A stretch of 36,703 nt of DNA from Heyndrickxia coagulans (lineage in GTDB: Bacteria; Bacillota; Bacilli; Bacillales; Caldibacillaceae): the NCBI GenBank assembly GCA_902796085.1, contig CADBNU010000336.1, positions 1 to 36,703 on the forward strand, written 5' to 3'. This document shows, piece by piece, positions 9,747 through 35,921 of this stretch (the first letter of the stretch is position 1; each line of letters begins with the position of its first letter). The translations under genes were made by a program, and so were the position numbers. The notes below the pieces were generated by a model. It was given only the letters and a program-made list of their open reading frames with translations. It did not search any database and was not told where the DNA came from.

Positions 9747-10364
9747 TTATCTGTGCTCCCGTTTCTCTTTTTCGTTGTTTGACTGTTTGTTTTGTATTTG
9801 ATCTAATTCCCTTGCTTTTTTATTGTTTGTTTCGTCTTTCGGTTCTTCCATTTGTTGTTCTACATCAGGGTCCAAGTCACTTGGAACCTCAGGCATAATT
9901 CTACCCATTATGTCGGCTAGTTCATTTAATACACCTTCAACTGGTTTACCGTTTTTTATATCCTCGTTAATTTCCTCTATTCGAGCCATAAAGTCGGGGT
10001 CTGCAACAACAACAGCGTTTGCTCCCATTGGATCTTTTTTCAATGCTTCAGCAACAGAATATTTAAGTGCACCTACTTTGGAACGATCTAGATCTTCATT
10101 TACATCGATGCCAACAATCGCATATTTCCCAAGAGCGACAGCCGTTGCTCGTTCAACATTTGGAACACTTCCAGCAATATTGGCGAGTCTTTGCGAAATT
10201 TTTTCGCTATCTTCTAATTTAACATCATCATAGGGTGAATGTCTTACATTCATAAATTGATTTGAATTTTCTTGATCGTTACGAGCTCGATCTGTCTCGT
10301 TATTGCTATTGCACCCTGAAAAGAAGAAAGCTATTAACAGGAGGAAAATAATATATTTTTTCAA
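9747..10364 (-). CDS. ylaJ: YhcN/YlaJ family sporulation lipoprotein
   Basis: A 205-residue lipoprotein with an N-terminal signal MKKYIIFLLLIAFFFSGC and lipidation cysteine at 18. After it comes a short polar linker, then the YhcN/YlaJ domain (about 45-155) with RLANIAGSVPNVERATAVALGKYAIVGIDV and a C-terminal acidic/glutamine-rich tail. Family members are made in the forespore and sit in the inner spore membrane or coat region, affecting germination or outgrowth. A TTG start at 10364 is chosen because GAGGTGG lies 5 nt upstream; the upstream GTG is part of that site. The ribosome binding site and start codon lie in one arm of a 13-bp inverted repeat (see 10363-10444). Confidence 0.85.
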   Translation of the reverse strand: MKKYIIFLLLIAFFFSGCNSNNETDRARNDQENSNQFMNVRHSPYDDVKLEDSEKISQRLANIAGSVPNVERATAVALGKYAIVGIDVNEDLDRSKVGALKYSVAEALKKDPMGANAVVVADPDFMARIEEINEDIKNGKPVEGVLNELADIMGRIMPEVPSDLDPDVEQQMEEPKDETNNKKARELDQIQNKQSNNEKEKREHR

Positions 10365-10444
10365 TATGACCACCTCAAAGTATATTTGTCTTCACTTAGT
10401 TTCTGTAACTTTTTCGTTCTTATTCAAAAAAAGGTGGTCATATT
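10363..10444 (-). promoter_or_regulatory. Inverted repeat covering the ylaJ ribosome binding site
   Basis: AATATGACCACCT (10363-10375) is the exact reverse complement of AGGTGGTCATATT (10432-10444). In a minus-strand transcript starting beyond 10444 the ylaJ Shine-Dalgarno and TTG start would be paired in a 13-bp stem with a 56-nt loop. A weak sigma-G-like element (TGAATA at 10426-10421, GAAACTA 17 nt on) lies in the loop and would give a transcript without the hairpin. Confidence 0.55.
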
Positions 10445-11790: not shown

Positions 11791-12954
11791 ATGATAAAAA
11801 GAAGGCTGAAATCGTTTGATTATTCTCTCCTAATAGTATATGTTCTGTTAAGTATATTTGGATTAATTATGGTTTATAGTGCAAGTATGATCACATCAAT
11901 CCAAATATATGAAGTTGAGAGCAACTTTTTCTTTAAACGGCAACTTATGTTTTTAATGCTCTCTTATGTTATGTGTATTGTTGCAGCTATTCTTCCATAC
12001 AAAAAATATAAAAATAATATTTTTTTAATGGTCATGATATTCATGATGTTTGCTTTATTAATCGGTTTGTTCCTACGTGGTCAAACGGTAAATAATGCAA
12101 CAAGTTGGATTTCTATTATGGGAGTTTCATTTCAGCCTGCAGAATTTGTAAAACTTGCGCTTATTATTTATTTAGCTGCGGTGTATAGTAAAAAACAACC
12201 ATATATTAATGACTTTAATAAAGGAGTTGTCCCACCGGTTGTTATTCTATGTCTCTTTTGTTTTCTAATTGTGCTCCAACCAGATGTAGGAACTGCAGCG
12301 ATTATTTTTGCGACAGGTGCTATCATCGTATTTTGTGCAGGTATGAACTGGAAAAATTTATTTAAACTATCGGGGATTGGTATTTTCCTAATTTTCATTT
12401 TCGTTTCTGTCATGTCCCTAACTGGCCATTCATTTATTACCGAAACAAGAATGGCACGTTTTACCAGTTTTATGGATCCATTTAAATATGAACTTGATGA
12501 AGGATTACAATTAGTCAATTCTTATGTAGCAATTGGTTCAGGAGGATTGACTGGTGTAGGTCTTGGTAAAAGTATACAAAAATTGGGATATTTGCCAGAA
12601 GCACATACTGATTTTATTATGGCCATTATTGCTGAAGAATTAGGTGTATTAGGAGTAGGATTTGTCTTATTTTGTTTAGGATTTATTGTATTAAAAGGAT
12701 TCCATTTAGGAATGAAATGTAAGGATGCTTTTGGGAGTTTACTAGCTTTTGGTATTTCTGGATTGATTGGAATTCAAACCTTTATTAACTTAGGAGGGGT
12801 TGCTGGGTTAATTCCGATCACAGGTGTTACTTTACCATTTGTAAGTTACGGTGGAACGTCATTAATGGTCTTATCTATTTGTATAGGATTATTAATGAGT
12901 GTTTCGAGCCGAGCAAATCTCGAAATGAAAGAGAAGGAAAAATTAGATTCTTAA
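11791..12954 (+). CDS. ftsW: Cell division peptidoglycan polymerase FtsW (SEDS family)
   Basis: A 387-residue integral membrane protein with about ten membrane segments, polymerising lipid II at the septum with a partner class B PBP. Signature pieces are QPAEFVKLAL (115-124), LQPDVGTA, RFTSFMDPF (223-231), LPEAHTDFIMAIIAEELG (268-285) with the catalytic-type aspartate D274, and GLIPITGVTLPFVSYGGTS near the C-terminus. Position next to pycA identifies it as the B. subtilis FtsW orthologue rather than RodA or SpoVE. ATG with AGGAAGAGGAAG upstream. The promoter region carries the sequence shared with SR1. The 131-bp gap to pycA contains a second promoter. Confidence 0.93.
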   Translation: MIKRRLKSFDYSLLIVYVLLSIFGLIMVYSASMITSIQIYEVESNFFFKRQLMFLMLSYVMCIVAAILPYKKYKNNIFLMVMIFMMFALLIGLFLRGQTVNNATSWISIMGVSFQPAEFVKLALIIYLAAVYSKKQPYINDFNKGVVPPVVILCLFCFLIVLQPDVGTAAIIFATGAIIVFCAGMNWKNLFKLSGIGIFLIFIFVSVMSLTGHSFITETRMARFTSFMDPFKYELDEGLQLVNSYVAIGSGGLTGVGLGKSIQKLGYLPEAHTDFIMAIIAEELGVLGVGFVLFCLGFIVLKGFHLGMKCKDAFGSLLAFGISGLIGIQTFINLGGVAGLIPITGVTLPFVSYGGTSLMVLSICIGLLMSVSSRANLEMKEKEKLDS

Positions 12955-12982
12955 AACATATAGCTTATTTAGTTATCTTAAA

Positions 12983-13046
12983 AAGATTGAGAGATATTGT
13001 TGAATTTAATGAATTTTGGTATGATAACAACAATTCTCTCAATCTT
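12983..13046. promoter_or_regulatory. Inverted repeat flanking the pycA promoter
   Basis: AAGATTGAGAGATATTGTTG (12983-13002) is repeated in reverse complement at 13028-13046 with a single base missing, 19 of 20 positions pairing. The arms enclose the pycA -10 box; the -35 box is the end of the left arm and the predicted transcript start is in the right arm. It is best read as a two-site operator, or alternatively as a hairpin in ftsW read-through RNA; no T run follows. Confidence 0.6.
12997..13025 (+). promoter_or_regulatory. pycA promoter
   Basis: TTGTTG (12997-13002), 17 nt, TATGAT (13020-13025), with an extended TG at 13017-13018. Transcript start near 13032, giving a leader of about 54 nt. 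Confidence 0.6.
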
Positions 13047-13085
13047 TATATAAAAACTAGTAAAATTGTATTCGAGGTGAAGTTG

Positions 13086-16000
13086 ATGCGGAAAATTAAT
13101 AAAGTGTTAGTTGCAAACCGTGGAGAGATTGCTATTCGGATTTTTCGAGCATGTACTGAATTAAACATTCGTACGGTTGCCATTTATTCCAAGGAAGATA
13201 CAGGTTCTTACCACAGATATAAAGCCGATGAAGCTTATCTAGTTGGAGAAGGAAAAAAACCAATTGATGCCTACCTTGATATAGAGGACATCATTCGCAT
13301 TGCAAAGCAAAATGATGTGGATGCAATTCACCCAGGTTACGGATTTTTGTCAGAAAATATTGAGTTTGCGAAACGTTGTGAAGAAGAAAACATAATCTTT
13401 ATCGGGCCAAAAGTTGAACATTTAGATACTTTTGGTGACAAAGTAAAAGCAAGGAATGCCGCTAAAAATGCAAATATACCAATTGTGCCAGGAAAAGAGG
13501 TCCAATCTGAAGCTGATATTCGGGAATTCGCCGAAAGATTTGGATATCCCATCATTATAAAAGCTGCTCTTGGTGGTGGCGGTCGCGGAATGCGAATTGT
13601 TCATTCAGAAGATGAACTAGTAGAAAGTTACAATCGTGCGAAATCTGAGGCAAAAACAGCCTTCGGTAGCGACGATGTTTATGTGGAAAAATTAATTTCT
13701 AATCCGAAACATATTGAAGTTCAAATTCTCGGCGATGCAGAAGGAAATATCGTCCATTTATACGAAAGAGATTGTTCCGTACAAAGACGTCACCAAAAAG
13801 TTGTAGAAGTTGCTCCTTCTGTTTCCTTATCGGATAAATTGCGAGAAGAGATTTGTGATGCTGCCGTACAGTTAATGAAATCAACAAACTATGTCAATGC
13901 TGGTACTGTTGAGTTTTTAGTATCCGGAGATGAATTTTATTTTATTGAAGTGAATCCGAGAATACAGGTTGAACATACCATTACTGAACTAATTACAGGT
14001 ATCGATATCGTACAATCCCAAATTTATATTGCTGAAGGCTACAGTTTACATGATCCAAAAGTTGGAATTCCTGAACAAAAAAATATTCAAACAAGAGGAT
14101 ATGCGATTCAATCACGAATTACAACAGAAGATCCGTTAAATCATTTCTTACCAGATACTGGAAAAATTTCCGTTTATCGTTCCGGTGGTGGTTTTGGTGT
14201 TCGTCTAGATGCAGGCAATGCCTTCCAAGGTTCTGTTATATCACCACATTACGATTCGTTATTAGTTAAAGTTTCTACGCATGCCTTAACTTTTGAACAA
14301 GCTGCAGCAAAAATGGTACGAAACTTAAGAGAATTCAGGGTTCGCGGAATTAAAACAAATATTGCATTTTTAATAAATGTTATGCAACATCCAAAATTTA
14401 TTAAAGGTGAATATGATACATCTTTTATTGATTCAACACCTGAACTGTTTAAATTCCCGATTCCAAAAGACAGGGGTACAAAACTGTTAACGTATATTGC
14501 AGATGTTACCGTTAATGGTTTTCCAGGTATTGAAAGAGTAAAGAAACCAATTTATGCAAAACCACGCATCCCTAAAGTTTCGGATGTAAATAACGACATT
14601 AGAGGAACAAAACAAATTTTAGATGAATTCGGACCAGAAGGATTAGTAGAATGGGTGAAAAATCAAGAACAAGTATTACTTACGGATACGACGTTCCGGG
14701 ATGCCCATCAGTCGCTCCTTGCAACGAGAATTCGGTCCTATGATATGCTTAAAATTGCAGAGCCAACTCAAAAACTTTTACCTGAAGCTTTCTCTTTTGA
14801 AATGTGGGGCGGAGCAACCTTTGATGTAAGTTATCGATTCTTAAAAGAAGATCCATGGCAACGACTCGTCGAACTTCGTAAAAGAATGCCGAATACTTTA
14901 TTCCAAATGTTATTTAGAGGGTCAAATGCTGTTGGATATAAAAACTATCCAGATAATGTCATCGAAGAATTTGTCAAAGTGTCCAGTCAAGCAGGTATTG
15001 ATGTGTTCCGCATTTTTGATAGCTTAAATTGGGTCAAAGGAATGGAAGTTGCCATTCGAGCTGTACGTGATGCAGGGAAAATCGCAGAAGCGGCTATTTG
15101 TTATACAGGTGATATCCATGATCCAACCCGTTCAAAATACAATTTACAATATTACATTGACCTAGCAAAAGAATTAGAACAACAAGGAGCACATATATTA
15201 GCGATTAAAGATATGGCAGGTCTGTTGAAACCTGAAGCAGCATATGAATTGATTAGTGAATTAAAAGCATCGGTAAATATTCCAATTCACCTGCACACCC
15301 ACGATACAAGTGGAAATGGAATTTTTACTTATTCAAAAGCGATCGATGCAGGTGTAGACATTGTTGATACAGCTATTTCATCGATGGCCGGACTAACTTC
15401 ACAACCAAGTGCTAACTCACTCATTTATGCCCTCGATGGTCATAATCGAAAACCGAATATTTCTTTAAATGGTTTGAATGCGTTAAGCCATTATTGGGAA
15501 GACGTAAGGTCGTTCTATAAAGACTTTGAAAGTGGCATGAATGCTCCACATCCAGAAGTCTATGAACATGAAATGCCGGGTGGACAATACAGTAACTTGC
15601 AACAACAAGCGAAAGCTGTTGGGTTACTGAACCGCTGGGATGAAGTCAAAGACATGTATCGTCGTGTGAATTTCTTATTCGGGGACATCGTGAAAGTAAC
15701 ACCTTCATCTAAAATCGTTGGAGATATGGCTTTGTTTATGGTACAAAACGAGTTAGATGAGGAAACGGTCATTACTAAGGGTAAGACCATTGACTTTCCT
15801 GAATCGGTCATCGAATTTTTCCAAGGGTATATTGGAATGCCGCATGGAGGTTTTCCGAAAGAATTACAAGAGGTCGTACTAAAAGGTAGAAAGCCGTTAG
15901 AAAAACGAGCAGGTGAGCTATTAGAACCGGTTAATTTCGATCAAATTAAAGAAGAGCTGTTCCCGAAACTAAAACGGAAGCCAACAGATTTTGATGCATT

Positions 16001-16517
16001 AGGTTATGCGTTATATCCAAAGGTATTTGAAGATTATGTGAAAGCCTTCCATCGTTATGGAGATGTTTCGTGTATTGATACTCCAACATTCTTACATGGA
16101 ATGCGTCTAGGAGAAGAGTTAGAAATTGAAATTGAAAAAGGTAAAACATTATTTATAAAACTTGTTTCTATTGGACAAGTTCAACGCGATGGAACACGGA
16201 TTGTCTTTTTTGAATTAAACGGTCAGCCACGGGAAATTGTAGTTAAAGATGAAAGTGTAAAAACTGAAGTTTCGGAACGTCCGAAAGCAGATCCGACAAA
16301 TGAAAGTCATATTGCAGCTACAATGCCTGGAACAGTACTAAAAGTGTTAGTCAAAAAGGGCGACCAAGTTCACCAAGGCGATCAATTAATGATAACGGAA
16401 GCGATGAAAATGGAGACAACGGTTCAAGCACCATTTTCTGGTACGGTTGAAGAAATTTATGTTTCCGACCAAGAAGCGATTAAACAAGGTGATCTCTTAA
16501 TTATTTTAAGTAAATAA
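13086..16517 (+). CDS. pycA: Pyruvate carboxylase
   Basis: A 1143-residue single-chain biotin enzyme that makes oxaloacetate from pyruvate and bicarbonate with ATP, feeding the TCA cycle and gluconeogenesis. The biotin carboxylase domain (about 1-455) begins INKVLVANRGEIAIRIFRA, with ATP-grasp GGGGRGMR and the EVNPRIQVEHTITE site. The carboxyltransferase domain has DTTFRDAHQSLLATR (about 533-547), AIKDMAGLL with the metal-site lysine near 706, and HLHTHDTSGNG near 735. The C-terminal biotinyl domain has EAMKMET, biotinylated lysine K1108. ATG 13086 has GAGGTGA 5 nt upstream; a frame open from 12879 overlaps ftsW and is not the start. It has its own promoter inside an inverted repeat. Confidence 0.97.
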   Translation: MRKINKVLVANRGEIAIRIFRACTELNIRTVAIYSKEDTGSYHRYKADEAYLVGEGKKPIDAYLDIEDIIRIAKQNDVDAIHPGYGFLSENIEFAKRCEEENIIFIGPKVEHLDTFGDKVKARNAAKNANIPIVPGKEVQSEADIREFAERFGYPIIIKAALGGGGRGMRIVHSEDELVESYNRAKSEAKTAFGSDDVYVEKLISNPKHIEVQILGDAEGNIVHLYERDCSVQRRHQKVVEVAPSVSLSDKLREEICDAAVQLMKSTNYVNAGTVEFLVSGDEFYFIEVNPRIQVEHTITELITGIDIVQSQIYIAEGYSLHDPKVGIPEQKNIQTRGYAIQSRITTEDPLNHFLPDTGKISVYRSGGGFGVRLDAGNAFQGSVISPHYDSLLVKVSTHALTFEQAAAKMVRNLREFRVRGIKTNIAFLINVMQHPKFIKGEYDTSFIDSTPELFKFPIPKDRGTKLLTYIADVTVNGFPGIERVKKPIYAKPRIPKVSDVNNDIRGTKQILDEFGPEGLVEWVKNQEQVLLTDTTFRDAHQSLLATRIRSYDMLKIAEPTQKLLPEAFSFEMWGGATFDVSYRFLKEDPWQRLVELRKRMPNTLFQMLFRGSNAVGYKNYPDNVIEEFVKVSSQAGIDVFRIFDSLNWVKGMEVAIRAVRDAGKIAEAAICYTGDIHDPTRSKYNLQYYIDLAKELEQQGAHILAIKDMAGLLKPEAAYELISELKASVNIPIHLHTHDTSGNGIFTYSKAIDAGVDIVDTAISSMAGLTSQPSANSLIYALDGHNRKPNISLNGLNALSHYWEDVRSFYKDFESGMNAPHPEVYEHEMPGGQYSNLQQQAKAVGLLNRWDEVKDMYRRVNFLFGDIVKVTPSSKIVGDMALFMVQNELDEETVITKGKTIDFPESVIEFFQGYIGMPHGGFPKELQEVVLKGRKPLEKRAGELLEPVNFDQIKEELFPKLKRKPTDFDALGYALYPKVFEDYVKAFHRYGDVSCIDTPTFLHGMRLGEELEIEIEKGKTLFIKLVSIGQVQRDGTRIVFFELNGQPREIVVKDESVKTEVSERPKADPTNESHIAATMPGTVLKVLVKKGDQVHQGDQLMITEAMKMETTVQAPFSGTVEEIYVSDQEAIKQGDLLIILSK

Positions 16518-16550
16518 AAATTAGGGGCTGAAAATCAGCCCCTAATTTTT
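16516..16550. terminator. Bidirectional terminator between pycA and ctaA
   Basis: TTAGGGGCTG (16521-16530) and CAGCCCCTAA (16536-16545), flanked by A5 and T5 that extend the stem to 15 bp; 5-nt loop. It works for both converging genes. Confidence 0.9.
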
Positions 16551-16560
16551 ATCGATATAA

Positions 16561-18815: not shown

Positions 18816-18861
18816 AAATTTTCATATTAGCACTATATGCACAGTGTTAATATGAAAATTT
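18816..18861 (+). terminator. Long stem-loop between ctaB and ctaC
   Basis: A 19-bp stem (18816-18834 with 18843-18861, one G-T pair) with an 8-nt loop, followed by a short T run. It can act as a partial terminator or mRNA-stabilising hairpin separating ctaB from the strongly expressed oxidase genes. Confidence 0.75.
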
Positions 18862-35700: not shown

Positions 35701-35892
35701 TGTTACCTCCATTTAAACTTTATGGTGTATTCTTTTTTACAAAAAAATGGTAATATGTAATTTATAGTTTCAAAAGTCTTACTTTATGGTCTTTCGAATA
35801 ATTGCTGAAAAAATAGCCAAAATTAAGAAAAGACTAGTTGTTAACATTATGTAATTTTTTCCTTTAACAATCAAGACTGTAAAGAAAAAATA

Positions 35893-35921
35893 TTGACAAA
35901 TCGTGCTAGTAAAGCTATAAT
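35893..35921 (+). promoter_or_regulatory. Consensus vegetative promoter for ylbN-rpmF
   Basis: TTGACA (35893-35898), 17 nt, TATAAT (35916-35921): a perfect sigma-A promoter. Transcript start near 35928, leader about 20 nt. Fits strong ribosomal gene expression. Confidence 0.9.

Follow-up and report, generated by a model that had tools for sequence, protein, structure and literature searches.

Control of pycA, the gene for pyruvate carboxylase, has been described in two species that can be compared with the locus analyzed here. In Bacillus subtilis, pycA is reported to initiate with A and to be subject to positive stringent control (PMC5733473; PMC9931155), and in the text of these sources that was covered, this control hinges on the initiating base and not on an inverted repeat. 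In Staphylococcus aureus, CcpE represses pycA via a LysR-type T-N11-A motif, and the start lies 275 bp upstream of the codon (PMC11315280). No long inverted repeat is described in the control of pycA of either species in the text covered. The locus analyzed here shares with B. subtilis the gene and an A at its probable start, and with S. aureus a candidate regulatory site at the pycA start. It can also be compared with those intrinsic (Rho-independent) terminators of Bacillales that have A/T-rich feet, which likewise have a long stem 3′ of a gene, an A tract before and a partial T tract after the stem, and arms that are conserved while the loop diverges. Unlike these terminators, the repeat between ftsW and pycA has a 25-nt loop, a weak and broken T tail, and a nested downstream promoter. 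In Term-seq sets from several species, the median terminator loop is 4 nt (PMC12207403).

The window, that is, the whole 36,703-nt stretch of DNA that was analyzed, carries on its plus strand the cell-division gene ftsW (11791-12954; TIGR02614 above cut-off) and pycA (13086-16517; TIGR01235 above cut-off), whose ATG is at 13086-13088 and whose ribosome-binding site, GAGGTG, is at 13074-13079. Between the two genes lies an inverted repeat with a left arm at 12982-13002 (AAAGATTGAGAGATATTGTTG) and a right arm at 13028-13047 (CAACAATTCTCTCAATCTTT), which pair at 20 positions with one bulge around a 25-nt loop (13003-13027). The minimum free energy of the hairpin is -23 kcal/mol, compared with -9.8 ± 2.6 for shuffled sequences (z -5.1), and 0 of 200 shuffles folded as well, so that the stable transcript hairpin that marks an intrinsic terminator is present. 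The 13-nt exact core of the repeat is one of six exact inverted repeats in the window with arms of at least 13 nt and a separation of no more than 80 nt; the number expected from first-order shuffles is 0.05, and the repeat is thus not a product of chance. The six include the hairpin directly 3′ of pycA and the hairpin between ctaB and ctaC, and repeats of this kind occur generally in the intergenic DNA of this window.

The repeat surrounds a promoter-like sequence composed of TTGTTG (12997-13002), a 17-nt spacer, and TATGAT (13020-13025), with a TG at 13017-13018 that would complete a putative extended -10 of the pycA promoter (TGGTATGAT, 13017-13025). This was the top-scoring promoter candidate of the ftsW-pycA spacer in a scan made for this analysis, and it was absent from the list of a consensus promoter scan because its -35 shares only three of six bases with TTGACA. 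We infer both the promoter and its start position as drawn here; judged by the distance from the -10, pycA transcription would start near A13032/A13033, which places the -35 in the left arm, the -10 in the loop, and the start in the right arm. RNA beginning at this start has no notable fold (z 0.63), so the hairpin would belong to ftsW read-through RNA, and we reject a leader structure within pycA's own transcript. The original prediction of a 20-nt inverted repeat with one bulge that encloses a promoter-like sequence is thus confirmed, and the predicted fold supports its proposal that ftsW read-through RNA would fold into a large hairpin, which could uncouple the two genes.

Conservation of the arms in relatives had been set beforehand as a test of the prediction, and we observe it in the one congener compared, Pallidibacillus pasinlerensis (L036; same ftsW-pycA locus as G001 and L004). 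Both arms are kept, the left with one 2-nt indel and the right identical, and the right arm is part of a 41-nt stretch, from TTTTGGTATGAT to TTATATAAA, that is identical in the congener. The promoter keeps its -35 and extended -10 at a distance of 17 bp, and the spacer sequence has changed (AATTTAATGAATTTTGG vs AGAATGAATTTTTTTGG); divergence is also seen 5′ of the left arm and in the leader from the right arm to the ribosome-binding site. A gapped comparison places the stretch, with the ylbH leader RNA and 35818-35860, among the longest non-coding runs that are conserved in the window. No compensatory substitution is found in the arms in the comparison with this one congener. The inverted repeat around the pycA start signal is therefore real and conserved, and by sequence comparison the conserved arms reach past what a promoter alone needs, so that either pairing in RNA or binding of the DNA would explain them.

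Two other stretches of the window stand out in the same comparison. The ylbH leader RNA (Rfam RF00516, 29783-29900) is nearly unchanged in P. pasinlerensis; it is the single Rfam match in the window, and the ftsW-pycA repeat matches no RNA family in Rfam. A strongly conserved non-coding stretch at 35818-35901 lies upstream of the window's last genes, and a TTGACA there could be a -35.

We compared the repeat with other hairpins, using about 385 kb of this genome for the hairpin statistics. Stems that are long and have A/T feet are frequent in these 385 kb. Two T-tailed hairpins of this genome (L085, 5381-5475 and 10159-10240) have stem feet that are unchanged in the congener (GCTATCC/GGATAGC and AAAGCTATCCC/GGGATAGCTTT) and 54-nt loops that have diverged there. 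The stem foot of another T-tailed hairpin (L082, 9308-9353) is also kept in the congener, and the ctaB-ctaC hairpin of the window (18816-18861) has the same pattern of a kept stem foot and a diverged loop. Because T-tailed hairpins keep their feet while their loops diverge, the ftsW-pycA repeat evolves like a terminator stem, a resemblance of pattern and not a proof of termination. The hairpin 3′ of pycA (16514-16552) has a compensated change in the congener. The two L085 hairpins have similar GCTATCC/GGATAGC feet.

The tail and the loop of the repeat differ from what is usual in terminators. Its T tail (TTTATATAAAA, 13045-13055), which in part overlaps the stem foot, is a broken tract that scores 3.1, compared with mostly 3.5-5.6 in clear terminators of this genome. 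A short loop is usual in intrinsic terminators but not strictly defining; the loop here is 25 nt, and the T-tailed hairpins of the genus reach 54 nt. A terminator scan with a loop limit of 8 nt did not flag the ftsW-pycA hairpin.

Two further long-loop repeats were seen in the window. One, at 1390-1483 between genes for a symporter-like protein and a sulfate adenylyltransferase, has 17-nt exact arms (ATATTCCCAAAAAATAT) and a 60-nt loop. In P. pasinlerensis its right arm is identical, its left arm has two inner differences, its loop has diverged, and there is no T tail; since it is largely conserved without such a tail, some long-loop hairpins may not be terminators. The other, at 10363-10444, lies where a minus-strand gene for a YhcN/YlaJ-type sporulation lipoprotein begins; it has 13-nt exact arms and a 56-nt loop, and one arm holds AGGTGG, which resembles a ribosome-binding site.

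We give roughly even odds (about 50%) to the reading that the repeat gives ftsW read-through RNA a terminator-like 3′-end hairpin that limits entry into pycA, with the pycA promoter nested inside the repeat. Most likely, then, this is an RNA hairpin limiting the ftsW message rather than a new repressor switch. The potential to form the hairpin, its conservation, and its look and evolution like those of the T-tailed hairpins of the genus are established, and termination at the hairpin is what the sequence suggests. Under the proposed mechanism, ftsW read-through RNA would fold into a long-stem, large-loop hairpin that would limit read-through from ftsW into pycA, and the pycA promoter would use the same DNA, with its elements distributed over arm, loop, and arm as above. 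The transcript of pycA itself would carry the right arm only in part and thus could not form the hairpin. The arrangement is mostly ordinary, but compact. A narrowly phrased literature search for promoters nested in terminators found nothing useful.

A strong conserved hairpin coupled with a weak T tail is also what would be expected if the repeat serves ftsW RNA as 3′-end protection or as an RNase cleavage site, giving the two messages separate fates without true termination. We regard such a processing or stability element as unlikely, since the T-tailed hairpins of the genus share its pattern of arms and loop, which makes termination the simpler explanation.

The original prediction had also proposed a repressor bound at both arms, one covering the -35 and the other the start, possibly with looping. 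The strong conservation of arms that span the -35 and the inferred start suits such an operator, but several observations make it a doubtful reading. With the 20-mer arm and up to 3 mismatches, we find no second paired copy in this genome or in the congener. Recurrence of the same site at other promoters or at a regulator gene would support an operator without being strictly required; such recurrence was not found, and no regulator was identified. The arms are spaced 40 nt apart in one species and 38 nt in the other, and their near-perfect complementarity over 20 asymmetric positions exceeds the need of two half-sites. The pattern of the repeat is shared with T-tailed hairpins, and the known control of pycA by CcpE in S. 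aureus uses, in the text covered, a T-N11-A motif (PMC11315280). Other genera of the family have unrelated hairpins in the ftsW-pycA spacer, before (G005) or after (G006 and G007) a promoter-like motif. Among more distant Bacillales, some have terminators made of a hairpin and a T run in this spacer (L007, L022, and L023), and others have short spacers without a hairpin and T run. From these sequences, a layout that is lineage specific and shifting would fit hairpins at the ftsW 3′ end better than a conserved operator, although an operator may be private to pycA or to this genus. The prediction as a whole thus stands in part: the conserved repeat around a promoter-like sequence and the read-through hairpin are supported, and the repressor binding at two sites or looping is not.

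Searches with the arm did not point to a wider family of sites. A 15-nt core with up to 2 mismatches gave 19 and 22 matches, compared with 13 and 12 for the reversed control, a small excess. Ten of the near matches from these searches were checked and all lie within open frames (one of them short, 97 codons), and a match with 3 mismatches (L002) is intergenic and has no partner arm; on the matches checked, we reject a regulon of such arms. We also reject a MITE-like mobile repeat because the paired repeat is single copy.

It is improbable that selection acts on the promoter and start region alone with incidental pairing, even though the promoter has kept its -35, its -10, and their 17-bp spacing and A13032/A13033 would fit the initiation with A reported for stringently controlled B. 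subtilis pycA in the text covered (PMC5733473), because the conserved sequence, in agreement with the arms, also includes bases 5′ of the -35 and reaches some 15-25 nt past the start, and the pairing is far above chance.

Terminator-like pairing with a nested promoter could have a further consequence, to which we give little weight: cell division and pyruvate carboxylase might be coupled in a way specific to this genus, through interference between ftsW read-through and pycA initiation or through a protein that recognizes the repeat as an operator in the DNA. If the terminator-like reading is true, 66 bases of an AT-rich Bacillales genome serve both as the end of one gene's message and as the promoter of the gene that follows. 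In genomes of this kind, long-loop terminators could then mimic operators, and scanners with short loop limits would miss them.
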